Shown piece by piece: positions 1-63,960 of a stretch of 64,000 bases of DNA. The stretch spans positions 62,001 through 126,000 of the forward strand of contig JADNRX010000031.1 in the NCBI GenBank assembly GCA_015501595.1. The letters run 5' to 3'. A program made the translations under genes and the position numbers. The notes under the pieces are model-generated. The model made no database searches and was not told the DNA's origin. It saw nothing but the letters and a program-made list of their open reading frames with translations. Position 1 is the stretch's first letter, and each line of letters starts with the position of its first letter. This DNA comes from Hymenopellis radicata. Its lineage: Eukaryota > Basidiomycota > Agaricomycetes > Agaricales > Physalacriaceae.

Positions 1-779
1 ATATACGTGACTGAGTCGGGGCTTCCTAGGGTTGCGCCGTAGCATGGTACGGGCCCATCGTAGAGAGGCAGCAAGTGATCGTCTTCTGGGAAAAGGGACA
101 TGGTGGTTGTGTTACTGCGAGGTTGCAGAGACTAGCTCACCAAATTGAGAAGGCTGGAATTCCTGTTCACGGGGACGGCCAGCAACACTACCCGACGGCG
201 GCGTGAGGGAAGCATTGGAAGCGGACACAGCGTTTCTGGGATGGTTGGAGTCCGTCTTCCCCTTGCAGCGATACCCGGTTGTCCGGCAATGGCCGCAGTC
301 GGATATAGCCGGGACTCGGACATAGCCGAGTCTGTCTGGACTCCAGACCTTTGGCGCCCCTTTCATCACTCCGCCCCTTTCATCACTCCCCAGTATTTTT
401 ACTCTGCCCGCTCTCCATTCCACGTCTTTCTCCCTTGCAGAGTGGTCGAGCTCATAGACGCCTGCCTCGGCCAACCGTCAAGATCTGCCCGAGCATGACC
501 GCCATCCGCCTCCCAGATTTCCGCGCCTCCGATGCATACGTACCATCGTCTTCCTTCCGCGCACTTGCTTTGACGGCGTTTCTCGACCCAAGGCGAATCC
601 ACCACCCCATTTCAGACGCCACTCACGCTGATCCTCGGCAACATCCGCCAGTGGCGTCGCAAGGCGCGGATTGTCCAATGCCTTGAAAAGCTCCTGCCAG
701 GACCAGTGTACTTACCCTGCATCCTTCATTTCCATCCCCTTTGCTACGCATGCTCGTGCCGTCTTTGCGCGTCCCAGTC
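1..779. other. Unresolved 5' region of the first gene
   Basis: This stretch lies upstream of the first confidently spliced exon. Short open frames occur on both strands, but none shows a recognisable domain. A plus-strand frame around 601-705 could be an upstream exon of the gene that follows. I could not find a donor/acceptor pair that joins it in frame to position 780 without a stop, so the 5' end is left open. Confidence 0.3.
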
Positions 780-2551
780 GGACAAAATCGCGGGTTAGTG
801 CTCGATGGTCGTCAACTCGAATACACGCAATATGTCGAGTCCCTCCTCGAGCAGGAGCCCTTCGCCGGCGTCATCAACCTACACCCTCTGGTCGACGTCG
901 TACGTCGTCTCCTTGTTCTCTGCTTTTCATTTGCTAACTAGCCGCTCCAGCCCGCGCAACGCTTTGAAATTGGTCATAACGTCAGTACTTCCCATTCTTT
1001 TCAACGTCTCACTGACATGATTCGCAGTTCTTTTCTCCGGAGCAGCTGCAAGCAGCGAACAACTGCTCCGCGTACTGGGGAGACTGTTACGACGGCGCCG
1101 CCGTCGCGCAAAATTTCTGGATTGTTCGCCGCGAAGAGACTCGGATTCTGGAGCAGGTGGACGCACTTTGGCCCATACCCGCGGGCCCCGACCATGCGAT
1201 GCACGCGCAGTGGCGCCGTCAGGTATGCCTGTTGCTCATTATTTTATGTCTTTGTCTTACGCGTGGGTAACAGGTTTGGATCGAAACTATGCATTGGTTT
1301 CACCTCCAACGCCGTCTGCGATGGGGTTTACCACCTCCCCGGCCTCTGGATGCAACCCCTTTGAACATCCCCCGCCTTAACCCTGATGCCCCGCCTCCTC
1401 AGCTTCCCACGTCTGAAACTCGCGCCTACATGGCGTCCTTGCCCATCGAACCGGGGTCGGACACCGACCATACTGGCTCGGCTGGCTCGACTCCCCCCAC
1501 TGTCATCCACACGCATTCCCTTGTTCCCGTCCCTGGTCCTTCGTCGTCTTCTATGACCACCCCTTCCACGCCCGAGCCGCCTTCGCCCAGTGGTTTAACA
1601 GGGGCAGAACGTCATGCCTGGAACCGCCGCGTGGAGCTCGAAAACAGACGGCGGGGCAAACGCCCAGCAGCATTGCACAGTCGCGACCACTACCGACCTA
1701 TGAATTTTGTGTCCGAAGATTTTCCTCTCATCCGTCAACCACCCGTACTGGCGCCGGGGGAGAGAATGAGGCGCACGTTGTATGGTAATCGAATGCGTGC
1801 TACCTTGGGCACTTCCATGCACGTCCGTGCTCCGCCACCTACTCCCACTGCTCCTACTCCAACCGCTGTGGCCGGAACCAGTTCTATTCCACCTTCGATC
1901 CCCAATCCTAACGACCTCGATTTTGGTGCGCTCGCCGCGTCCAACGAACTCCATTTTGGTGCGCTCGCCGCGTCCTTGAAGCGTGCGCTGCCCAATGCTT
2001 CAGTCACTGCGAGTTGTCTTTACGTCGCGGACGAAGTCTCTCCTAACTCCGTGAAGGCCAAGCGTGCCGCCTTGGCCGATCTCGAAGACACTGCAGAGAC
2101 CTTTCGTACCACGCTTGCCGACCTTATCGCGGGTTTTCGTGATCACCTTCGTCGGCAGGAATCGGCCATGCTCACGGATTGGGAGGACGAGCATAGGGCT
2201 ATGGATGCGGAGGATGCGGATTTCGATCGACAGATACACGAAACGTTGGGACTGGGACCGTCTCCCCAGAGTGTCGCAACTCCTCAACGACACCAGGACT
2301 CGTACTGGGTATCACCGCCGTCTTCTGCCAGCCTATCGGCTCCACCGCCTTCCTTGGTTGGTCCGGGTATGCCCCCACGCAGAAATGCGTCGGTTTCACC
2401 CCCTCCTCTTATGTCCATACCAGCCTCCACGGATCCAACGCCCACGAACAGTCCCACGTACACGCCTTCGAGCATTATGGCGAACCGTGGGACGGTTACG
2501 CCTCCCATCATTCGTCTCGGTCCATACACGATCTCGACTTCGCCACTTTGA
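780..2551 (+). CDS. Hypothetical Pro/Ser-rich protein, multi-exon
   Basis: I do not recognise this protein. Four exons join in frame at 780-899, 942-980, 1028-1222 and 1274-2551, with GT-AG introns of about 42-51 nt. The N-terminal part (from GLVLDGRQLEYTQ to the QWRRQVWIETMHW region) looks like a folded domain. It is followed by a long Pro/Ser/Thr-rich tail with an Ala-Leu segment near 1900-1990 in which a 36 nt unit is repeated (FGALAASNELHFGALAAS). The start codon is not resolved. The frame stops at 2549-2551, but another frame stays open from about 2290 to 3024, so the true 3' end may involve a further splice. It lies upstream of the KDZ transposase and could be an accessory gene of that element or an unrelated lineage-specific gene. 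Confidence 0.5.
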
Positions 2552-3024
2552 GTCACTCCACCACCCTCCAGTACGACACAGCGTGCCTTGTGGATTGGAG
2601 GGTGCGCGGCCGCCAGCTGGAGTTCGACGTTCGTCCCGGAGATAGCTCTGCCAGTACCGACACCAGTCAAAGGCCTCGTTCCGCGGGAGGTGGACCGGTC
2701 ATCTTTTATGAGGAGGAGGACGTACCTCTCCAGGCGTCGCAGAGACTAGGGGATGCAGAGCATGCTACACCTGACTGGGACTGGTCTCTCCCGGCGGGAG
2801 ATGTGGAGATGCATGAGCACTACGGTGATGACGCCGACGAGCTGCCGGATGTGGATACCAATAAGGTGATTGGAAGTTCCTTCTATCGTGATCTCGCGCG
2901 AGACCTAAGTGTTGACGCCCCAATGGACAGAGCTCTCGTCCGGGCCCTCGAGACCATTGACGCGTCGACGGAGGCTAACATGTTGAACAAGGTTGTTGAT
3001 TCCATGTTCGAGAAGCTCGGGTAA
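2548..3024 (+). CDS. Hypothetical acidic protein or terminal exon of the preceding gene
   Basis: This is an open frame of 158 codons from the first ATG, but it is open further upstream, to about 2290, overlapping the preceding frame. It encodes an acidic C-terminal region (YEEEDVPLQ, YGDDADELPDVD) ending in a helix-like stretch around VVDSMFEKLG. The overlap with a different frame suggests that this is the last exon of the same gene, reached by an intron I could not place. No known domain is visible. Confidence 0.4.
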   Translation: MSHSTTLQYDTACLVDWRVRGRQLEFDVRPGDSSASTDTSQRPRSAGGGPVIFYEEEDVPLQASQRLGDAEHATPDWDWSLPAGDVEMHEHYGDDADELPDVDTNKVIGSSFYRDLARDLSVDAPMDRALVRALETIDASTEANMLNKVVDSMFEKLG

Positions 3025-3653
3025 ATTGTGTGTGTTGGCTGGTCTGTTGATGATGTCCGTTTGGTGTGTGTTGGTGTGTATATTCGCGTATGTGTTCCGC
3101 CGCGTTGGGCTTCTTTTTTGGACTGTTATTCATTTGTTCGTGGACTGCATTGTTGGCCGCCTTTTTTTTACGATTTATTACGATTATTACGACCTTATGA
3201 CCATTTTTATATCAAGTGACGAATATTTTTATATCTTTTACTTTTATGATGTTATCGTTTGGACTCCTTAATGTAATTCTCTGTAGCAATGATAGGTATT
3301 TGTGCCACTCTCCGTTGTGCAATTGGTGCGTTTTTTGGACGAAAAGGTGCGAAAGACCCCCGGGAAGGAGTATTCGGACCCTTAGGTGTGGAAATGGCAC
3401 ATCGGGGATCTCGGACGGAGGCGGATGGAGATCGAGTCGCACCATAGCACAGCCACAACATCCGGCTTCCTCCCATCATCATCCGTCTAGGATTTCCTAG
3501 TCGAACGACGTCGGCAGAGATCCAATCTCCGGATGACTTTGAATGAAGAATTTCTTTGGGGTTCGGATTCAACACAATGTACGTCCCGCATGTCATTGTC
3601 AAAAATTACACTACCCACGCCCCACAGTGTACTTCATGGTCTTCGGTTCACCG
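3025..3653. other. AT-rich intergenic spacer
   Basis: This is a T-rich spacer, especially 3100-3260 with runs such as TTTTTTTTACG, between two convergently transcribed genes. I see no coding potential. It probably holds the 3' ends and polyadenylation signals of both. Confidence 0.4.
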
Positions 3654-4353
3654 TTACACCACCCCCGCCGGAACAGTGTCCTTCATGCTCTTCGGCACAG
3701 CGTTTCCGTTTCCCTCCGCTGGACAATGGACCGCGTCTTTCGCCAGGCCACCCTGTTTCAGAGGAAAGAAGAACTCAAAATCGTCGACATATTCGTGAAG
3801 AATGTCTAGGCGGACTGTCATGACATCCATTCGCCCATCCTTCATCTGAGGCCGGCCTTCCTCCGTCGACCAGAACGCTGATAACGCGTTGATAAAGATC
3901 TTGGGGATAGACTGTGTGATGTCAGGTGAGACTGAGGACGACAACAAATTATCTGATTGACTCACTTTTCTGCGCTCCAGTGAATTCGCCACCGAGGTAC
4001 CCTTAGGGTCAGGAAAGCGAGCGAGGAAGGCCTCCAAGAACCGAGTCAGCCATTTACCCGCACGCGCCTTCCGAACGTAGAACTCGAAATCGGGAAACGA
4101 CGCGTTGAGGTATTCCTCCTCCGCCATAGTAAAGTGGTGCCATATCATGTACACCCCCGTGGTAAAGAATTCGGGGTAGGGGTGATCTTGGCGCGGGGTG
4201 TTAAGACTGAAAGTAAGTCAGAACATCGCTGCAATGGGAAACATCCAAGCCTCACGGAAGTCTCAGGACAGACCGGCGATACGCGAGTACTTCCTGACGC
4301 TGAGCAGGCGTGAGACGCTTCATCCAGGTGCGGGGAGTCGACATCAAGGACAT
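3654..4353 (-). CDS. Hypothetical 198-aa protein divergent from the KDZ transposase
   Basis: The family is not recognised. Three exons on the minus strand join in frame: 4353-4256, 4206-3966 and 3911-3654, with introns of 49 and 54 nt. The ATG at 4353-4351 follows an ACCAGC context. The product is 198 aa with aromatic motifs (VYMIWHHF, FPDFEFYV, YVDDFEFFFPL) and no signal peptide or membrane segment. It starts only 153 bp from the KDZ transposase start on the opposite strand, so the two share a divergent promoter region. This arrangement would suit an accessory gene carried by the same transposon, but that is inference. A chromosomal gene next to an insertion is the alternative. Confidence 0.6.
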
Positions 4354-4506
4354 GCTGGTGGTCGCGGTTCAAGATTGGAAGGAGGTCGTCAAGCTATCGC
4401 GGACTTCTTATACGCTTCCTGGACGCCACAACGTAATATCCGTTGGAGGGGCGTGGTTCTCCGATGGCAGTTGTCTCACGCCTGTCCTCCGTACTTGGTT
4501 GCCACG

Positions 4507-7500
4507 ATGTTCAATCCCAGATCTTTCCAAAGGGGTTTGCGACGCCGTAGGAATATTCAACCTGTCCAGCCCTACGCGCAGCATGGACGCCGACAACCTC
4601 GCTACTCGAGGGCCCGCAGTACATCCAGCGATGACGGTCTGGACTCCATTGAGACACGTCAGTATGAGAGGAACCAATGGGGTGACCTCGTCATGCAGGC
4701 TGGACCTAGTTTTACCAGCGAAGTGAACACGGAGCACAGAGAGGGTTTGACAGACGAGGAGGAAATCATCGATATAGGGGAACTGACCTCAGATATGGTG
4801 GTTGATTGGGAGGACCTACCAGCCGACGGCGCCGCCGAGAAAGTCAGCGAGCCTGAAAGGCTGAAACGCGCTTTCCCAACGAAGAGACGCCCTGGACGAG
4901 TGAGCACGTTCCAGTCTTCGTCAACCAGCACTAATGCGTTTCAGCGGCGTGCCATGGACGTCTGGGCAGGGCGTGGAGGTACCCAAAACTTTGCGCAGGA
5001 GTTTCTGTATGAACTGCTGAGGCTGAAGGGGCGGGGGAAATGTCGTCCGGATGCTTGTGCGGGCTGCAACCAGTCGGGGAGTGTTCTGTATCGCTGTCGG
5101 GAATGTGCACCAAGCCGCCTCATTTGCAAGACGTGCTGTGTTTCGGAACATGCTACGAAACCCCTCCATCTCATACGGGTATGTTTCATCCTCTGGATAG
5201 GGTTTAGTTTTGACTTGTTTTCAAGAAATGGGATGGCGACAAATTCATTCGAATTCCTCTGCAGCGGCTTGGTCTGCGCGTCTACCTCGGCCACGAGGAC
5301 GGCTCGCAGTGTTTTATGCCGCGACAGTCCGAGCGGCTTGTGGTCATTCATACGAATGGGATTCACGAGGTTTCGGTTCGCTACTGCAACTGTTTACAGG
5401 CCATACCACGACGCCAGCAGTTACTACGATTTGGTTGGTATCCGGGGACTGTACGGCGCCCGGCTACATGTGCTACTCTTGACGCTCTCGATTTATTCCA
5501 CGCCCTGACATTGAATGGGAAACTCTCCGCATATGCCTTCTACAAGTCGCTGATCTATCTAACGGATGCATTGGGGATCAAGGTTCCAAAGGTATGGCAA
5601 ACAATGACAGGCCTTTCACCCTATACTAACGACTTGATAGAAGCGTTATCAACCTTTCCTAAGAATGATTCGTCAGTATCGACATCTTATGTTGATGATG
5701 CGTGCCGGCAAGGGCAGTCAAAAGGACGGCGCCAGTGTCTTCAAACCAGGCGAGCTCGTCCTGAAATGTCCGGCTTGTCCCATTCCTTCTGTGAATCTGC
5801 CACCGAACTGGAAAGAACGCGTCGATCAGTGAGTTGTACGTTCATGATCGGACGACCTACTGAAGGGGTTTTCCAAGGTATCTTTACCGCAAGACGATTT
5901 CTTTAGACGCCTGTTTTCGCCTGACAAATTTGCATCGATCGAATCAAGCCACCGATCCTTCGCTACATCCGGGGGCTGGCTTCATGCTGGATGATGCAGG
6001 AGACTCAGAATATGGTGCGCACGTATTGAGGAATGCAAGCCAGAAAGATGTGAGTATGATTTTGTCTCAGTGACTTTACGCTTGGCTAAAACAGTTCGTC
6101 TTTAGATGAACACTTGCAGTGGGTTCAGGGCTATTGCCCATGCTGACTCGAAGAATAACACGGGACTACGCTGCACTGGCGTGGTGGCCGCTTTGTGTTC
6201 GCGCCATGAAATGGTCTCTGCGCAATCTGTAGGAAATTTGCAGAAAGGGGAACGGTATGATCTTTTGTCTCGTACCGTTAACAAACGTTGAAGATCGTTC
6301 AGATTTTGCAACAGCGATTTCGTGGCGTGTACCGCCCTGCGCGACGACCACGACCTAAAGGAGGTCTGCTTTTCCTACGACATCGCGTGTCAATGGATCA
6401 AGAATTTCTTATCCCGCATGGAGACTCTGCCTGAACATTTGCAGCTCCCGGAAACGATGCAGACGATGCCGGCGATTCCGAAGGCGCACGCTCCCTGCCA
6501 TCAAATTGAATGCCAAGTCGAGTTTGCCATGGGTATTCAGCCCGGAATGGGACGCACTGACGGGGAAGCAATTGAGCGAGTGTGGGCATTTATCCGAATG
6601 TGCGCCGCCAGCATCAAGGAAATGGGACCGGGATCACGAGCAGATACGCTCGATGACCAGTTTCAATTCCACAACTGGTGCAAGCTGATTAATTTGGGCA
6701 AGTCGTGTTTTCTTTGCGGGGTGATGGCTTTCTGATTTTTGGAGTACAGGCATGACCACCTTGAAGCGGCTGGTAAAAGCACGCGCACAAAGTCTACAGC
6801 AGGGTACCTTACACACAGATTTCACTAGCCATCTACCCGCTGACACCGTTGCTCGTTGGACCGAAGGGATTGAAGCCTGGGAGCGCGACAGGCATAACCC
6901 GGATATTGAGAATCCGTACGCGCAGGTGGTGAAGCGTGAGCAGCACTTCACGCCGTCTGACGAGTGTTGACGATTTGATAGACGAGACGGAGTGCCAAGC
7001 CCGGTATAGGATGCGAGAGTCGGAGCGTCTCGCAATTGAACAAGGTGCACCGCAGCTGCACGATACATTGCCAACTGGATGTCTGACGCTGGGTTTCTCG
7101 ATCGAGCAGCAACAGTAAGTAAATTCCTGGATAACATTGACAGAAATTGACGGTGATCATACAGGCAGAAATTAAGACTTCTAACAGATGGCGAAGGGAC
7201 GCTCACCCAAGCCCAGGCCAGCGAGATTCAAAGGAAGCGTGTCGCATTGTCAAAACAAATTCGATTGTTCCGAAGCAGTCAGCTGGTTTATATGCCCGGA
7301 GTGGCTGCTGAATTGGCACGCGAAACGGTAGCGCGTAGGGTGCCAATCGATGTCGAGGACCAGAAGTTGTGGATGCCTTCGCACTTCGATGCGAACGTGC
7401 GAGAGACTGCTTGTCTACCAGGATTCTCGGCGAAGGAAAAGGAATTGCGGATAACTCAGTGCAACGATGCGCTCCATGGCTTACGGGACTGCGAGCGGGG

Positions 7501-8219
7501 GCTGCGCACCTACGCAGCGTTTCGGCGCGACGAGACAGATGGGCAGGGTGTACTGACACGCGCACAAAGTGCTATCAAAACTATCGAGGCACGACGGGAT
7601 TTCAATGCGAACAAATACCGGCGTTGTCGGCGGGCTCTGGAGCGCTTGGATCCGGGTGGTGTTTGGTCCATCGAGCTGCGACCTCTGCGACAGTGCGATG
7701 TCACTAACATGGCCGGGGGGGGTTTTGATATTGATGTGCTCATGCCGTTGGGTGAAGGGGCAGCGGAGTTGTCATGGATTTGGGCGAACGAGACGGGCCA
7801 CGGTCCTGATGCTGTCGAAGGTAAAATTGTAGTTGTCCAGCTACGCTAATTGACTAACGGAGTCAGGTTGTCACATGGAATGGTTGAAAAGTAGAGCGAG
7901 ATCAAACCGCTGGTCGGAGGATGTAAACCTACTCAAGGAAGAGATGCGACGGATAGCAGTGACTTTGGAGGCGAGAGCGGTCTGGTGGGATGCGCATCGG
8001 GAGAGCGAGGACACGTGTCTTGAGCTGGAGATTAAGGAGGGTATACGTGCGTATGCAGCACAGCAGGCGTGCGTACAGCGCACATTGGTAGATTCTTTCG
8101 GATCGATATGGGAAGCCGGTGGGATCGAAGTCGATGACTCGGAGGACTGGAACGAGACAAACGAGCCAGAGGAGGAGGATGAGAGTGACGATGAGAGTAT
8201 TGTTGGGGATGCGGACTAG
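4507..8219 (+). CDS. KDZ-superfamily transposase with CxC2 cysteine cluster, apparently intact
   Basis: This is a DDE-type transposase of the fungal Kyakuja-Dileera-Zisupton class. Ten exons join in frame: 4507-5178, 5226-5591, 5641-5828, 5878-6049, 6106-6254, 6303-6697, 6750-6935, 6982-7114, 7165-7820 and 7867-8219, giving 1089 aa. In order they encode a charged N-terminus; the CxC2 cluster (CAGC..CREC..CKTCC); the CSGFRAIAHAD and GVVAALCSRHEMV motifs; and the catalytic triad, Asp in SLDACFRL, Asp in FSYDIACQW and Glu in GRTDGEAIERVWA. A basic/acidic C-terminal domain ends in an Asp/Glu tail. Intron 6 (6698-6749) uses a GC donor (GCAAGT). No stop or frameshift breaks the frame, so the protein could be active. 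I could not find the terminal inverted repeats or target duplication of its element. Confidence 0.9.
6698..6749 (+). other. GC-AG intron in the KDZ transposase
   Basis: The donor is GCAAGT and the acceptor TACAG. Only this boundary keeps the frame from the INLG end of exon 6 into MTTLKRLVKA of exon 7. Reading through meets a TGA, so the GC donor is required for a full-length product. Confidence 0.75.
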
Positions 8220-8414
8220 CACGGTAGCATACATCAGTAAAGCGGGATCTGGTAGAAATGTCAATTTCTCATGTTTCGTATAGAAGGCGTATGTTCTAGA
8301 CAGTCTCGGCAAACTTTGTGTAGTAGTGTGAGTATGTCAGGACAATAATGGTGTTGGAAGTTGAGGTGAAGGTGACAATAGTGGTGTACTCAAGGGGTTG
8401 GCAGAAGCATACAC
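8220..8414. other. Spacer downstream of the KDZ gene
   Basis: This is the 3' flank of the transposase gene. It has no open frame of interest and no recognised repeat. Confidence 0.4.
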
Positions 8415-8489
8415 AAGCACCTATGGTTCAGTGGCTGTTGTACTGAAGTGAGTCAACGTGAGGTCGTGGGTTCGATTCCTCCTGTGTTT
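8415..8489 (+). other. tRNA-like (Pol III-type) sequence 1
   Basis: It has an A-box-like TGGTTCAGTGG and a B-box GGTTCGATTCC about 40 nt apart. The first seven bases (AAGCACC) pair six of seven with the last seven (TGTGTTT), as in a tRNA acceptor stem. The anticodon arm does not fold into a standard 5-bp stem with a 7-nt loop, so this is more likely a tRNA-derived element or SINE head than a working tRNA. A related copy follows 75 bp downstream. Confidence 0.5.
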
Positions 8490-8563
8490 ATGCCCAGTGC
8501 GCGACAACTTTTGTCAGTATCTGTTGGTAGCGATGGTATCAGGCTGCTGGGTTGTCGTCCGGC

Positions 8564-11998: not shown

Positions 11999-12757
11999 CT
12001 CTTGTAGGCCACACTTCTCACATGTTGCTCGTTCCTCAGCGTGACCAATCTTCCTAGGCTTCCAGTAGTGGCCGGCCAGTCTTGTATCCCTCATGTATCA
12101 GCATCCAGAGGAAGTACTGTACTCTTTCGACCGCATTTTCACATAACGCGTCACGCGAGTCTGTGAAGCGAAGATCCGGGTACAGCATAACGCATCACGG
12201 ACCCCAAAAGTTGTTAGTGTTCGCTTAAATAGGCAATTTTTTTCGCTCCGGCTGACGCCGGAGCCTCCATATATAGTAATTCACGTGATTTCTGTGCCTA
12301 ATGAAGATGTTCGCTACATCTTCATGACCATAATGCGTCACAGGCCGTGAAGATACGGTCGAAAGAGTACAGTACCTTGCACTTTTTGAGAATACCTTAT
12401 TTCTGATTGACATCCAGATTCGCATTGGGCTGGGTTCGTTCTCAAGATGTTCGCTTCCCGCAGCAATGGCTAGTTTTATGTTCCGTTGCGTGTCAGTCCG
12501 GTTCATACTTTCTTTATACGCGCCATTTTCTTCTTTCGGATGATCTTGTGTGCTTTCGATTGTGTTATCGCACTCTGTTTTGCTTAGGCGACTCAGAACC
12601 GTGGGGTTTCCAAGATGTCTGGGCGTCATTTCGCATCCTTTGGCGGCAAGCTTGTCTGTCTCTTCAATTTCCTCGACGCCTGAGTGTCCTTTAACCCATT
12701 CGATGTACGACCTTCCAGATGACATGTTTCTTCGACCCGTATTCAATTATAAGAGAC
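11999..12757 (-). pseudogene. Non-LTR retrotransposon remnant: RNase H C-terminus and ORF2 tail
   Basis: The minus strand encodes the second half of a retrotransposon RNase H domain (YIEWVKGHSGVEEIEETDKL) followed by the IWMSIRNKVFSKSAR region typical of fungal LINE ORF2 tails. The frame is then interrupted by a 256 bp TIR element (12117-12372). Beyond it the frame resumes as FLWMLIHEGYKTGR and degenerates, with stops, into a Cys pair (TCEKCGLQE) where a second MITE begins. The reverse transcriptase and endonuclease parts are absent. Upstream, the remnant is cut off at 12757, where the large transposon begins. Confidence 0.75.
12117..12372. mobile_element. TIR element E1 (256 bp MITE, CTGTA-CTC-TTTCGACCG family)
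   Basis: The left end CTGTACTCTTTCGACCG is an exact inverted copy of the right end. TA lies on each side (12115-12116 and 12373-12374). Replacing the whole element plus one TA rejoins the minus-strand retrotransposon frame exactly (SKSAR-Y-FLWML), which establishes the element borders and a 2-bp TA target duplication. The interior contains GTGACGCGTTATG-like motifs near both ends. No coding capacity. The ends match the 6.5 kb element at 12760-19237 except for the three bases after CTGTA. Confidence 0.9.
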
Positions 12758-13114
12758 TACTGTATACTTTCGACCGGATGTTCGCCGGTTGTTACGCGTT
12801 ATGCAACGAACTTATATGAACTAAGTTCGTTGCCAGGCACGGTCCCGATCAAGGGGGTTCCGGACTTAAAGTCCGATACATCCGGCAGGTAGGTAGGGTC
12901 AGCAGGGAGGTCTGAAAAAAGTTTTTTCAAACCATGATATTTTCAGTCAGTTTCCTGTTCCAAATCATCGTTTCATGTATTAGCTGTAATTGTATACCAT
13001 AATAAGAGAGTTCCGCCCTCCCAGTGATGCTAAAACGTGTTCCGACTGACAGGTATCCTAATTTGGTAACTATATTTGTCTGCTATCGTTTCTCTCCTCC
13101 GCCTTCGTTGTGCA

Positions 13115-16100
13115 ATGACCTCAAGCTATACAGAAGCCGATGTTAGTATCAATAGCAACTCAAACAGCATGTACTCACACCAGTTCAGGTCCAAGTCATT
13201 GATTATAACACTGCTCTATGTCCTGCATGTGGTTGCGAGGTCAAGATGGGGCCCGGCGGGGCAAAGAATATTATTCTAACGCACGTCAATACAAAAAATT
13301 GCATCAAGAATAAAGAGAAGCGGCTGAAGAAGGAAGGTGATGCTCGAAAGCACGGACGTCAACAGGGTCTTACAGCATTCCTCAAACCGCGAGCACCAAA
13401 AATCCCGGCACAGGTCACCGCACCGACTCGCACCTCATCACAACCCTCCGGTCCATCATTCGATACACGTCTGGCACCCCTGCCATTATCTCCAGCTCGC
13501 ATTAGTCCTCCAGCACTTTCCATCCCATCTCCCCAGTCATTACCACCTCCTAATCAAAACTCGGTGCAGACAGTCCTAGCACGCGCGCCTACATCGAAGC
13601 TGCTCCTCGCGCTTCAGAAAAAAATCAGTCGCGTCGATCCAGCAAGTATTCCTGCAACTGAGAGTGGTTATGACCCTCTTGCTCCATTCGGCGGAGATCC
13701 GAGCGCGTATGCCAATCCTGAGGCTCGGGGGGATGATCTGTGGGAAGATGGTCTGAACAAGCATGTGCATGCCACATTCGGATGGGGAATGGATGTGGAG
13801 GAAGCCAAAGGGCTGATCCAAAATGGGACTGAGGGTGTTAATGGCGTGTTGGAGTTCATGCGGTATTTTATCGAGGAACGCGGCGTTAGCGAAGGGTTAT
13901 TCAAGGAGAAGATTGAGCTCTTAATCAAGGCTCTAGATACATTGTGAGTGTGTCCATTTTCTAACGGGATGTGACTGACCTATGTAACAGTCCTGTGCGC
14001 GTCGTCGATAGCGATGAGATTAATTCGGCGGTGCTCGACATTCAGAGTGAATACGCTCCTCCGAGTTCATCACCTCCCACCAAATCATCTTCCATGAAGC
14101 CGACGTCAGTTATCGACATTGATACCCTCTCAGACAGTGAAATCGTACCTATCTCAAAGCGTCCACAAGTCGTTCGAACACCATGCCCCGGTTATGCACC
14201 TCCATTTCCCGATGGAGCATCCCCCCACAAGGACTACCCCTTCGCGCTCCATGCCCAACACACACTTCCCTTTGAATACGAGATCAGACAAGGTGTTCTT
14301 TATGTTCGCGGTCTTCTCTGTCGTCGCTGGCTGCACAATAAAGAGACGCGGTGTCCGCCATGCGAGATGCTGCCCCAGAATTCAGCACTAGCAGGGATAA
14401 TGAAGCGTATAAAGGACGGCGTACACGATAATGCGAACCTTGCATACAATTCGCACAGCCAGCTCGTGGCAAAGTATTACCATCGTGGCGAACAGCTCAA
14501 CGTACAGAAGTTGAAGGGTTTGAATACAGAGAAGATGCTGCGGGTGAGAGCGAAAGCACTGTCCAACCACAAACGTCTGCTTGTCGCGATTCGTAGTGGG
14601 AAGGTTGAGGCGGTAGATCGAATCATTCGGATTGGCCTGAAGAGAGGAATGGGAATTAAAGCAATGCTGGCACTCTACGAGCGTGCTGCTACCGGTGCAT
14701 ATCGTCCACGGAGCTATATCGAGGAAGACTACCTTCGAGGCCTATTACTCTGGCGTCTCGGTGGAAATCGAGTTGCAAAGATTGCTCACCGTTCGTTAAA
14801 TCAAATCCCAGGGCTCTCCACTCTGCGACGCCATTCCACTATGCCCCGTATCATGCCCTCCAATGGAATGCCCACCATCCACGAAATCCAGAAGAACATA
14901 GATGCCGTCTTATCGGAAGAGGAATTGGCAGCGAGTCGTGTGTCTGAGGTTGTGTGCCATCAGATCGTCATGTTTGACGAAATGTCCATTGAAAAGCGAA
15001 TCCGCTGGGACGATAAAACGAACTTCTTCCGTGGGGTATGCCGTGAGCATGGAGAAAAGGTGTCATTAGAGTTTGGCAGTGTAGACGAGTTGAAAGAGCT
15101 ATTCAGAAGCCTCGATGACGGCAAGGTTCATTACGCGTCGGAGGTAATAGTCAATTCTCTCGGCCCCTAACTTCGTATTCTAATATATACCGTTCAAAGG
15201 CCACCATTGGAGCGCTTGGTATCCTCACCAATAATAGACGGATCTATGGAGCACGCCCTATCCTTGTTTCCGGGACTTGTAAGCGTGAAAACGCGATTAA
15301 ACACGCTCAACTGCTTGAAACAACGCTTACCGCGGTTAACGCCAAAAAAGACATAACAAAACTACGTGTTGTATCTATCGCGTCTGACGGAGAGACAAAG
15401 CGCGGCTCTGCCCTCGTCGACATCACTTTCAAACGGCAACTCTCATCCACCTCTCCGATCCATCGACTCCTCTCCCCCCTCCCCGTCATGGACTTCTTTG
15501 TTGGTGACGACGATCTTACCCCAGACAAAGATTACAAACATGTCTTCAAACGAATCCGGAACTTGTTCCTCCGTGCGCGAGGACTTGACGTACTCGAGAC
15601 GCATGTGAATCCGACAATTATGAAGGCACATCTCCGTGATGCAGGTGGTTCACAAGAGCACGTCGAGTCTTTGTTCAAGCCCGACGATAAGCAGGATGTG
15701 ACGCTTGCTTATCAGCTTCTTCGGGACCTCTGGTCGCTTCCGGAGACCACATCTATACAGCCAATGTTTGTAGCTCAACGTGATGCACTCCGCCTTCTCG
15801 GGGATCTGTTCCGCCACCTCATATGGCCATACATCTGTGTGGATCTCTCCTTGAGCGAACAGCTCAAGCATCTTAGTGCCGCTGCATGGTTTACCTTGGT
15901 TCTCTTTCGAAAGTCTGGCAAACACTTCATTCCAACACTTCTATACACTGATATTATGCTCATGATCAAGAATGTGTACTTCTGTGTTGCGAAGGCCAAG
16001 ATAGACAATCCCTCAGGGATGTTCTGGATCATCCTGTTGGGCACAGATCGTTTAGAAACCATCTTTGGAATCTTGCGGACAATTATCGGTACAGATGCCA

Positions 16101-18908
16101 ACGTCGATGAGCTCCAGCTGGTCGAACGGATGACAGGTACCACGGAGGTCTCAAACATTCTCGCCATCAAACCTGAATGGGACAGCAGTCCACGACGTCT
16201 CCAGTTGACACCTGTCTCAAGAGATGGTCACGCCATCGTGGATTCAGCCGTGGATCGTATCAATCCACGGTCCTGGACTGGTGATCTGCGTCTCGAACTC
16301 GTCAACCTATTGACAAACTGGACAGGTGGACGTCGATTAGTCGTGGACAAGTACCCACAACTCGCACCCCTCCTTGACGCGCTTGATCGCGACACACGTC
16401 CTATCACCATTCTAAGCCCACTTGGTGTTCTCCTTGTTGATGAGCCCCTTGCGGAGGATGATAACGAGGATCCCGACATCGCACCTACTCCTGATTCTGC
16501 CAATCCAACAGTTCCTGACGTGCCTAATTCGTCTTCCCTTCCCGATTCACCAACCTCGCCTATCACCGCTGACAATGCCCGCACATTGGTGCCCACTTCC
16601 ATTCGAAGCCGCGCTAATCCACCAGTCGTTGACGAACCAGGCCCCCTTCTTGACCTCGATGACTCGGGAATACGCGAGTTGGAGGATCAGATTGCTGAGG
16701 AGGATCAGACGACACTCTCTGAATTGAACGAATGCACCTTTGATCGTTTTGTCTTTATGGACGGTGTGAAAGTCAACAAGGCGCGCGCCATCAAGATCCA
16801 GTCGCGGTACCGCACCCAGGCCAGCTCGACAGACCGGTTGAGACGTGTTAGAGAGATTGCCCGCTTTGATGTCAACCGGCCATGTCGGCCTGTTGACGCA
16901 GACTTCGACGAGTCCATGGAGGACATCTTGATGTGCGGAGAACCGATCGCGACAGTTCTCATCTCTGAGGATCGCCTCTGGCTCTGCATCGGTGCCGTAA
17001 CGGATATAAAGAATGGCACAGGAAAGGATAGCTCTGTTACCGATATAGAGCTGGACATCCTGAGCGAAGACGGTATCTTTATTGAATTCCAGATTATCGA
17101 CGTTGTTCCAGCAACCACCGATGATGACCAAACTGAAAAGTTTGACTGGCGGACACGCGCGCGCAGCAAGCCCGAGGTCTTTACAGTCCCAGGACAGTTT
17201 GTCCAGCCTGTCCATCCAAAGCTGCAAGTGCCCGAGACAGGGTCAACGTTTTGGATGTTCGCCAGTGCTGAACTCATCGCGCTCAGCGCAGATCTGCTTC
17301 AACGTGTTAACTCAGCATCTGATGCCGGGGTGTCTCGTCGCAATCGAATCATACCATCTGTTGAACGTACGAAAGATTTCCCTTATCGCGAGGCCTCAGG
17401 TATGTAGTATATCCTTTGTTTGATTGTCATGATCTAATTGTTAAATGTCAGGCCGTGCATGCTTTCTCTGTGTCGGAGAGAACAACGTACAAATGCTGCA
17501 GAGTGATGGGATGTACTGCTCGCAGTGCCCAGATCCCATGATTCCTCTCAACCTCGACAAACCCCAGTCTATCCTCGCGCATAATGCAGCCCATATCGCC
17601 TATGGTCAGATGCAGAAGACCCTTCTCCCGTGTGGTCTTTGTCTGTCACCGGCGCCGCAATGCCAGTTCTACCTCACGGGAACTGGAGACAAGACTCAAA
17701 TCGACCGAAAAAGAACTCACGGTTGTCAAGTATTCGACTCGTTGACGACTCGAGGTTTCAAATATGCCGTTGCGGCCAAGTCAACTGGTGGCAGTCCGTG
17801 CTCGAATGTTCCCATTCCGTGTCGGATCTGCAGCCGTTCCGACCAAGGTAACAAGAAGGCACCGGCGATTTGGAAATATACGGCTCGCGAACATTACGAG
17901 ACGAGGCACAAGAATGTCGACCTCACGCTGTACGAGGCCGACTGGAAACTATCGAGGTCAGAAATGTCAGAGATGAAGAAAGTTTACAAGAAGCGTAAGC
18001 AGAAGACAACACTGCCGAAGAAACGTGCGCAGGAAAAGGCTTCGAAGATGTTTGGCGAGCTGGTCGTTTCCGAGTTACACCAATCGAACAGGTAGGCTTC
18101 AAATCGTATAATATTGCGTGTTCTAATGTTATGATAATAGTGCTACTGCTCCTGTAGATGCGGGTCAGTCACCACACGATGACAATAATGAAAACTCACC
18201 ATCGCAACCGTCGGCCGGTGGTCAGCGTCGGTGGGCCGTCGAGGATGCATCTTGGCTTGACGGTAACGACGAAGAAGCTAACGAGCCCAATGGTGAGAGC
18301 GAGGAAGATGCCGAAGAGTCTGTCGATGAGGGAGAATCTGAAGTAGGCGAGTCTGGTGGGAATGGTGATCATATGGATGAGGAGGAGGGAGAGACGTCGG
18401 CTGTTGAAGAGTTAGACGATGTCGAAATGGGAGTTATAGACGCACCAGAAGACGAAAGGGACGATACGACAACAATACCTCGATCTACCACACCAGCGAC
18501 ACCTACATCCGTAGCAGTCTTCGCACTCCCGCCGAATCCTCTACCGAATGCGATCCAAGCTTTACCGACTCCGGCAGTCGTTGCCCAAGTACAGCCATCG
18601 ATCCAGCTGGCGAGTACATCGAGGACGAACAGTGGTAGACCTTCCCGCGCATTGAAGCGGAAGACAGTGGCGGATATGCTTGGCGAATGCGTATGTGGTG
18701 TGAAGGTCGCAGAGGAAGATAGAGAAAGTGCGGCCAAGTGCACGCGAGCTGGATGTGAGACGGGATGGGTAAGTGCCATCTTCGCGTCAAATAACAATCT
18801 TACTAACCAAAAGGGAAGTTCCATATGGCCTGTACAGGCATGGATTTTATTCCGCCGCGTTGGGCATGCGACGGCTGCGGCACAAGAGGAGGAAAGCGCC
18901 GTAGATGA
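13115..18908 (+). CDS. Giant P-element/THAP9-like transposase with N-terminal zinc finger and C-terminal PHD-like finger
   Basis: Seven exons join in frame: 13115-13141, 13189-13943, 13991-15143, 15200-17399, 17452-18091, 18141-18768 and 18819-18908, giving 1830 aa. Near residue 20 is a CPAC...H...C zinc-finger-like segment, followed by a Pro-rich linker. The core has the order of motifs seen in P-element/THAP9 transposases: Asp in MFDEMSIEKRIRWDDKTNF, Asp in VSIASDGETKRG, KDYKHVFKRIRNLFLRARG, and GTDRLETIFGILRT with a candidate Asp/Glu. A cysteine-rich block follows (CFLCVGENN...CSQC, CGLC, CRIC), then an acidic stretch. The C-terminus is PHD-like (CVCG...C...CETGWFHMAC...PPRWACDGCG). Assignment to the P superfamily is from motif order only; P elements make 8-bp duplications, whereas TA is seen here, so a separate family is possible. 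Confidence 0.75.
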
Positions 18909-18949
18909 TGGCGCGGGGAAGGAAGTGGGGTCAGGGGCTAGTACCAATA

Positions 18950-19230
18950 CGGTAAATAACGCATCACGTGATATTATGACGTCATAGAGGTAGGTAGGGT
19001 CTACGCCGAGGTCTGAAAAAAATTAAACAGCCCAGTGTACAAAATTAAAATTTTTGAACCCCCTTGGTCCCGATTCTTACCGGATATGGATGTCCCGCCG
19101 CAGGCGGGACCCGAAATTTTACCGTTTTAAGCCGGTCGACCCTGAAATTGAAGCCCGTTATGCGTTATCCAAGCCGATAAGTTCGGTTCCAGGGGCGGCG
19201 TGACGCGTTATTCGAATATCCGGTCGAAAG
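18950..19230. promoter_or_regulatory. Right subterminal region of E2 with repeated GTGAYGCGTTAT motifs
   Basis: Copies of the word in either orientation are seen as AATAACGCATCAC (about 18959), CGTTATGCGTTATCC (about 19157) and GTGACGCGTTATTCG (about 19200). Similar words sit just inside the ends of E1 and E3. Clustering next to the TIRs suggests binding sites for the element's own transposase. Confidence 0.6.
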
Positions 19231-19770
19231 TATACAGTAAGTACGTCGCATACTATCAGCCCGTCGCAACTGTTACTGGGTATGGTAGCGTTGCGGACTC
19301 GAGCGGCGGCGGAATGGGTGGCCCGGCGGAGGCGCGCCCATCGGAAGCATGAGGGCTCCATCCGACGCTTCCAAGAAGTACTTATTCGGATTACTAGGTG
19401 TGTCAATTATGTAAAGTGAGCGTCTAGCTTCTGCGTCCTTGTCCGTCACTTCTAACCACCTCTGCCTCAGCCCCTTCGTATTCGCTCAAACTTGGTTCAA
19501 GTTGGTTCCAATTTTCGAGCGTACTTAAGTTGATTCCATGAATGAGCATGACTTTCTCTCCTCATAGTTGGAGTTTATAATGCATCGCTCCGCGTCCAGT
19601 ACAAGAGAATGTCCCGTCCAAGGATGCTTGCCTACTGCGACCGGACGCTGACGTTTTGCAGTTTACGGGTCTTGTTTTGTTCCCAGGCTGGCATCTGGCA
19701 GGCGTCGTATGTGGTCAAACTTGCGCGCGCGTTCAAGACAATTGCGTTATACATATCGATTTCCAACCAT

Positions 19771-21924: not shown

Positions 21925-22168
21925 CTGTAGCGTTTCGACCGTAACTTCACAGCCTGTGACCCGTTATGGTCTGAAGTTACAGTGAACAGCTTCACAGACC
22001 CTTAAATTGCCTTATTTGGACAGTCCCGCCTATGGCGGGACCTGAAATTTCCTTATTTGGAGGCTTGTGCCTGGCCAAAGTGGTCCGTGACCCGTTATGG
22101 TGTATATATAGCTTCACTTCAAAGACCTCCGTGACCCGTTATGTGAATTTGCGGTCGAAACGCTACAG
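21925..22168. mobile_element. TIR element E3 (244 bp MITE, CTGTA-GCG-TTTCGACCG family)
   Basis: The ends CTGTAGCGTTTCGACCG are exact inverted copies with TA on both sides (21923-21924 and 22169-22170). The interior has three GTGACCCGTTATG words, two of them close to the right end. It has no coding capacity. It differs from E1 and E2 in the three bases after CTGTA (GCG), which match between its own two ends. Confidence 0.88.
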
Positions 22169-61796: not shown

Positions 61797-63960
61797 AATC
61801 TACACGTCCGGGTTATCGTTCACGAGATCGCCAATGTTCGCAGGCATTCCATCTTTCCCGATGACCTGACCATTCTCAACATGCTGTCCCTTCAGCAGTT
61901 TTTCCAACCGCTCCCATTCCACTCGGAAGTCCTTTTCCTGCGCATCAATGTTTGACCTGTCAAAGTCGATAATGGAAATGCCACCCGCATCATTGACCAA
62001 TATGTTCCACGTTCTCAGATCGCGATGTAGAACGCCTGCGGCATGAATGGACGTCATCGCAGCTCGTATAAGGGTTCTGTGAATTGCTCAGAGGGTTGGT
62101 ATTCGATGAGAGTAGGCCCCATACTTTTCATTCGCCGTGAGTTTAGCTCGGCGCCCACCGAGTGAGCGGCCATCGTTGCTCAATATCAGTGCACCAGCGC
62201 TGCGTTGAGCATCCTGATAAAAGCCAAATACCCGTGGAATACACTTCACATTGGCATTCTTCAAGTGGGCGTAAACAGAGTACTCGTGTCGTAATCGGCA
62301 TAGGCGTCTGAAAGTCGTCGCCAGCTTCACGACTATCGGTCCGTGCTTGACATTGGGAATGGTGGCCGCGAATACATCACCCGTTGCGCCTGTCCCGAGC
62401 CGAGAGTTCAAGACCAATGTAAGATAACTAGTGGGAGGTAGGCTGCCCTTCGCCTTTGCCCGGGTTGAAGAAGAATGGAAGGAGAAGGAGAATTATATAT
62501 CCCAAATCGAATGTATATGGCGATCGCAACGTGTCGAGAGAACGAGGTTTCGAGGTTCTACAGACTGATTAGTGATAAAATCTCCGGACAAAACAAAAAA
62601 GAGAACATTCATCTGTGAAACCGTGCCTGAAGAAAGACCAACAACCTTCATGGGTGAGATCAGAGAATAGAATGGTTGCAAGACTAATCTAGAGGCTTCG
62701 TCTCACCTTTTGACGGCTCGTGGTTGTTTCCCCTTGCCGTTTCGACGTGCCAGTCTTCGCGTGAGATCCCTACCAATCGTCAGGACTTGATGAAGAGAAT
62801 AATATACTACATACCTTGCTACGGCGGGTGCCCCGCGCTTTGGCCTTTCGTTTTTTGTTGGAACCTTCTTCGGTATCTGGAGCTGCACGCTTCAGACCGG
62901 CAGTAGGTACAGGAACGGGTTGGGACGCTAGACGGATGTGATAGCGTTCCATCAAATCCTGCGCGATAGCAATATGCATACCAGCCCAAATCTTCCCATA
63001 CGCGGGGTCCTTGGCATGACACACGTCGAGTAAATCAGACAAGATCAGTGTTTGCGTCTCGCGATGACGAATTCCGATACGTAGATAGTTCCCGCAGTCG
63101 AAGACAATAACCGAGGCGTCAGCTCTTACTGCGAGTGCCCACGCCTGCGCCGAGTTAAACAAAAGTACAAGACCAGAAATGAACTCACCCTTTGAATATA
63201 TTGAGCAGGGTTGTCACGCCAGTTTTCCATTCCGATAGACATGACACGACCAGGCGAGCAGTAGTTCACGATGGGAGAATCGGTACGGGAACTACGTCGA
63301 ATGTGGCCCTCCCGACGCGGGGCGAGATCAAGCTTGGGAAGAGGCCATAACGGGTGAGGGTTATCAGGAGGTTGTGGCACCTTCGGGGCTGGAGACGGAT
63401 TGCCTGTTGTCGAATTAGATGTCCAAGGGAATTCCTCCATCTCTGCCACACGCTCCATCTTCCGAAGCAGTTCATGCGCAGCTGGACAAAAGAACATGGC
63501 AGTAGCACAGTGAGGATACTTCTTTCCGATATCCAGCATTTTAGGGCGCATTTCTGGATGAAACTTCTGTATGAAGCGAGGCTCCCTTATACTATAGTTG
63601 GCGAAGCGAAGAAGGAAATGTTCAACAAGGAAGGAGTTTGACGAGTTTTGGTCACATGTATCCAGTTGAGAATATCCCCATGAAAGTGCTGAGAGGATCT
63701 GCGGCTGCTCAGGGTGTACATATATGCTAGACGCGAGTTGCGAGGCCACAAGACCGGCCCCCAGTTGGTGTGTCGTGGCTATAGGCTCCGCGGTGTTTAC
63801 ATCGACCGGGTTCCGATACCAGTCCTGCGTACGTCCAAAAAGGTCATCTGGTATCAAGTGACGATTGGAGAATCCGCCAAGTTTCACATCGACAACGTGT
63901 GCTAGCGCTGTCAGCAGAGGAAGATGTATCACGACGCGCCTCAGGACGAGATTCTCGTCA
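61797..63960 (-). repeat. Inverted duplication, right arm (kinase-like gene)
   Basis: This is the reverse-complement counterpart of 49590-51815. It continues to the window edge, so the full arm length is unknown. Confidence 0.85.

Follow-up and report, generated by a model that had tools for sequence, protein, structure and literature searches.

Inner and outer ends at the locus

The window analysed here is a 64,000-nt stretch of contig JADNRX010000031.1 of the mushroom Hymenopellis radicata (positions 62,001 to 126,000, forward strand). It contains a transposase gene lying between two sets of inverted ends, an inner set (CAAGGGGG) and an outer set (CTGTATAC). A reading made from the sequence only had taken the whole as a single 6.5-kb TA-flanked transposon. 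It is very probable that the unit consists of two elements, one inside the other: a transposon of 6217 bp with a target-site duplication (TSD) of 8 bp, a predicted P-element transposase core and likely P-like cut-and-paste movement, inserted into a 253-bp TA-flanked miniature inverted-repeat transposable element (MITE). Their parts are as follows.

12760..12849, unstranded: left part of the MITE with terminal inverted repeat (TIR) CTGTATACTTTCGACCGGAT and TA outside, ending with the first GTCCCGAT copy (joined flanks compared with L002)
12842..12849, unstranded: 8-bp TSD copy 1, GTCCCGAT
12850..19066, plus strand: transposon, 6217 bp, with ends CAAGGGGGTTC and GAACCCCCTTG and an 11-bp perfect TIR (inner ends and TSD; same ends in L051-L053)
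12887..12920, unstranded: subterminal 34-nt motif, a possible transposase binding site, 85% identical to its right-end counterpart
19067..19074, unstranded: 8-bp TSD copy 2, GTCCCGAT
19075..19237, unstranded: right part of the MITE, TA outside (joined flanks compared with L002, and TA flanks)

The outer inverted ends extend over 27 nt at 96% identity (12758-12784 and 19213-19239) and are perfect across CTGTATACTTTCGACCGGAT, which none of 100 shuffles equalled; both (12760 and 19237) are bordered by TA. To this extent the sequence-only reading, which had described perfect 20-bp inverted ends with TA on either side, was accurate. However, these features delimit the MITE and not, as it had supposed, the transposon. 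Removal of the insert and one GTCCCGAT copy leaves 253 bases, to which L002 is identical at 249/253 positions over the full length without gaps, and six more MITE copies bridge the same insertion junction at 85-87% identity with 6-10 gap positions. All seven fetched copies are of the 253-bp type, gene-free, continuous across the insertion point and flanked by TA. Since these empty copies align across the junction and are TA-flanked, the TA and the 20-bp TIR are assigned to the MITE, whose family, unlike the transposon, is non-coding. Moreover, a search of the 75.5-Mb assembly (1405 contigs) with bases 1-100 of the 6.5-kb unit returned at least 40 scored matches, none of which, besides the window itself, continued past base 91; the TIRs, for which such a search had been proposed, recur in the seven fetched gene-free 253-bp copies. 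A single 6478-bp transposon with 20-bp TIRs, a TA duplication and a P-like transposase would account for the TIRs and the TA, which do exist, but is improbable in the extreme in view of the empty copies and of inner ends that carry a perfect 8-bp TSD and are common to relatives and derivatives.

The termini of the transposon are CA...TG, and the 34-nt motif occupies left-end bases 38-71 and, in direct orientation, bases 187-220 of the last 265. The 8-bp TSD is shared with the Drosophila P element and with the zebrafish THAP9 element, according to the available text of PMC7776569; the 11-bp TIR is shorter than that of either (31 bp in Drosophila P and 13 bp in the zebrafish element). A separate superfamily with TA targeting, which had been suggested for the locus, has lost its ground because the TA belongs to the MITE and the transposon has an 8-bp TSD of its own.

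Two more TA-flanked MITEs with related ends (CTGTAC/GC...TTTCGACCG) lie in the window at 12117-12372 and 21925-22168. The opposite nesting is seen at L035, where a TA-flanked MITE of the same kind (8134-8366) lies within the related transposon (672-8495), near its right end.

The transposase gene and its predicted core

The transposase gene (13115-18908) is predicted to be spliced from seven exons into a protein of 1833 amino acids with no internal stop. The sequence-only reading likewise had seven stop-free exons, with a product of 1830 amino acids, three fewer.

13115..13145, plus strand: exon 1, predicted; the start and intron 1 are the least certain
13184..13943, plus strand: exon 2, with an N-terminal zinc-finger-like motif C..C-H-C (13219-13302)
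13991..15143, plus strand: exon 3, with the first catalytic Asp, D593 (14976-14978); both flanking junctions occur in P0001
15200..17399, plus strand: exon 4, with D711 (15386-15388), the D759/H762/K765 motif from 15530, D931 (16046-16048), E934 (16055-16057) and a beta-rich domain (about 16922-17332)
17452..18091, plus strand: exon 5, with a Cys-rich block
18141..18768, plus strand: exon 6, with an acidic linker and the first half of a PHD finger (from 18688)
18819..18908, plus strand: exon 7, with the second half of the PHD finger (to 18878) and the stop

Introns 2 and 3 are also present in the NCBI model of the same locus (P0001). The junction of intron 4 is read through in the relative P0003 and that of intron 6 in P0006 and P0017, while intron 5 falls within a poorly conserved stretch.

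The predicted core fold of the protein is that of the P-element transposase (6P5A/6PE2), which ranked far above RAG1, Transib and Hermes (hAT fold) in both fold rankings. The predicted RNase H-like core contains catalytic D593, D711 and E934 together with a D(2)H motif, the combination that marks P/THAP9 transposases; the signature of P itself is given as D230, D303 and E531 plus the D(2)H motif in the available text of PMC8230255. Among the homologues the DDE-type residues are near-invariant, and the P-specific D(2)H and D..E..F...R (DxxE..F...R) motifs are conserved. An insertion similar in length to the GTP-binding insertion domain of P is predicted at the same place in the core, and an RNase H fold with an insertion preceding the last Glu is likewise found in THAP9 and zebrafish Pdre2. 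These results support the P-element/THAP9-like core that had been read from the sequence.

In comparison with the Drosophila protein of 751 amino acids, the mushroom protein has an additional zinc-finger-like motif, Cys-rich block, beta-rich domain and PHD finger. The N-terminal finger, Cys-rich region and C-terminal PHD-like finger had all been recognised previously. The PHD finger has a C4-H-C3 zinc pattern and matches PHO23 (5.9e-5) and ING chains, 13 chains in all reaching E 0.1 or better; a whole-protein Pfam search at E up to 1 gave no PHD match.

That the enzyme belongs to KDZ, Plavaka/CMC or hAT, all known from fungi, and resembles P superficially is very improbable. The hAT elements make 8-bp TSDs. 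In this genome KDZ (166 matches) and Plavaka (73 matches) are abundant; KDZ is common in Agaricomycetes, and an 8-bp TSD would suit its Zisupton members, going by the available text of PMC12730594. Unlike KDZ, however, the transposase has neither a KDZ (PF18758) nor a CxC match, nor a Plavaka domain (PF18759), among its matches in Pfam with E no higher than 1. None of the KDZ matches listed from the genome search lies in the transposase gene, and the Plavaka search gave none on this contig.

By analogy with P, the 11-bp ends and the subterminal repeats would be the binding sites of the transposase, which would use D593/D711/E934 for cleavage and attach the transposon ends to the two target strands at positions 8 bp apart. 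The PHD finger may steer it to chromatin.

Relatives in the genome and phylogenetic place

A search of the genome with the core gave 22 matches, several of which are exons of one gene. When 16 loci (15 fetched and the window) were tested for ends, 12 showed a perfect 8-bp TSD each, and their ends took the form CAAGGG, CAGGGG or CAAGAG.

8-bp TSDs: window GTCCCGAT; L033 CGTGAGGC; L034 CTCGATTC; L035 CGAAAAAG; L036 TGCTGCTG; L037 AGCCGGCT
8-bp TSDs, continued: L039 ATGTATCG; L042 GCGTCTTT; L043 TCCGCGCC; L044 CCCGTATG; L045 TTGTTAAC; L046 GATTTCGT

The left end of the transposon has 28 further genome matches, a count of matches and not of copies. Three readable examples among them, L051, L052 and L053 (921, 937 and 666 bp), have both ends in common with the transposon and three different perfect 8-bp TSDs, and look like non-autonomous passengers. 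The open gene, the perfect TSD and these short derivatives favour the view that movement took place not very long ago.

In a maximum-likelihood tree of 41 fungal and animal P cores, a long branch (100/100) separates animal P from the fungal rows, which comprise the window type, the sister type and the L046 type; the window type as a group received support of 70/20 only. The very probable joint reading given above includes the placement of the transposon in a sister lineage of animal P elements, known to date from Agaricomycetes and with no recognised THAP domain. It is filed as a sister lineage and not as a canonical P element because this domain was not found; THAP domains are animal-restricted according to the available text of PMC7776569, and both Drosophila P and THAP9/Pdre2, the latter at the N-terminus, carry one. 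Homologues of the sister type are from Agaricomycetes among the named matches listed (best 120 of 183).

Several observations weigh against this reading or parts of it. The NCBI gene model is partial, ends before intron 4 and omits two stretches kept here as exon. In single-sequence searches, Pfam gave only a sub-threshold match to PF21787 (E 0.004; 17.9 bits, where the cut-off is 24.6), nothing in the PDB matched with E of 10 or less, and the THAP domain PF05485 is absent from the Pfam matches with E no higher than 1. D444, essential in Drosophila P by the available text of PMC8230255, aligns with a column of Y (41), R (19) and F (12) in 96 sequences, and the K400 position is D in 89/94. No TSD was found at L038, at L048 or at L041, which a contig end interrupts, and a candidate at L047 was judged to be due to chance. 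At only 80% identity to the core of the window, the second-best core match in the assembly gives no evidence of recent jumping by the window element.

Among the other GTP-contact positions, D528 is kept in 93/96 and V401 in 94/95, and the S409 column is K/R; with D444 and most contacts changed from Drosophila P, GTP use by the fungal lineage appears doubtful. These changes, together with the unrecognised THAP domain, the long branch between the fungal and animal groups and a spacing of 118 residues between D593 and D711 (73 in P), would suit a superfamily of its own, in which the core would go back to an ancient ancestor common to several RNase H transposases and the 8-bp TSD would be a coincidence. 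We regard this as unlikely, given the wide lead of P in both fold rankings and the conserved P-specific motifs.

Distant relatives, about 30% identical, occur at L042, L043, L044 and L046 and represent a sister lineage of the same kind with 8-bp TSDs; perfect inverted repeats measure 94-102 bp in L042-L044 and 31 bp in L046. Elsewhere in the window, a KDZ transposon (5214-6675) has a CxC2 cluster of cysteines (E 2.5e-40 in Pfam) as well as a match to the KDZ domain with two stops (C641:68103-68675, window 6103-6675). A 173-amino-acid open frame on the minus strand (12225-12746) contains WVKGHSGVEEIEETDKLAAKG, with the MITE at 12117-12372 in or beside it; it had no match in a Pfam search and resembles the RNase H tail of a non-LTR (long terminal repeat) retrotransposon.

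Meaning for the P superfamily

Among animal transposons the P element is the classic example, with a transposase that is unusual in requiring GTP. No fungal P-type element was found in the open literature searched, with Repbase and most subscription papers outside that search, and it is plausible that the lineage has not yet been described in fungi. What stays new is a fungal lineage that is sister to P elements and has chromatin-type fingers; Repbase or subscription journals may already contain it. A broader proposal, distinctly improbable and put forward as tentative, is a large unlabelled mushroom branch of the P superfamily that lacks THAP, no longer depends on GTP and employs chromatin readers (the PHD finger and a Tudor/SAWADEE-type barrel) to aim integration at marked histones.

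The locus illustrates that insertion into a MITE can make a target duplication and a transposase seem to be paired in an impossible way. Annotators gain a concrete family, as none of the 96 listed homologues, nor any of the best 120 of 183 in a second search, has a precomputed Pfam label. Through a mushroom lineage that has an open gene, 8-bp TSDs and short derivatives, the P superfamily would reach another kingdom, and such a lineage would serve as a natural experiment on which components of the P mechanism, such as THAP and GTP, are dispensable.
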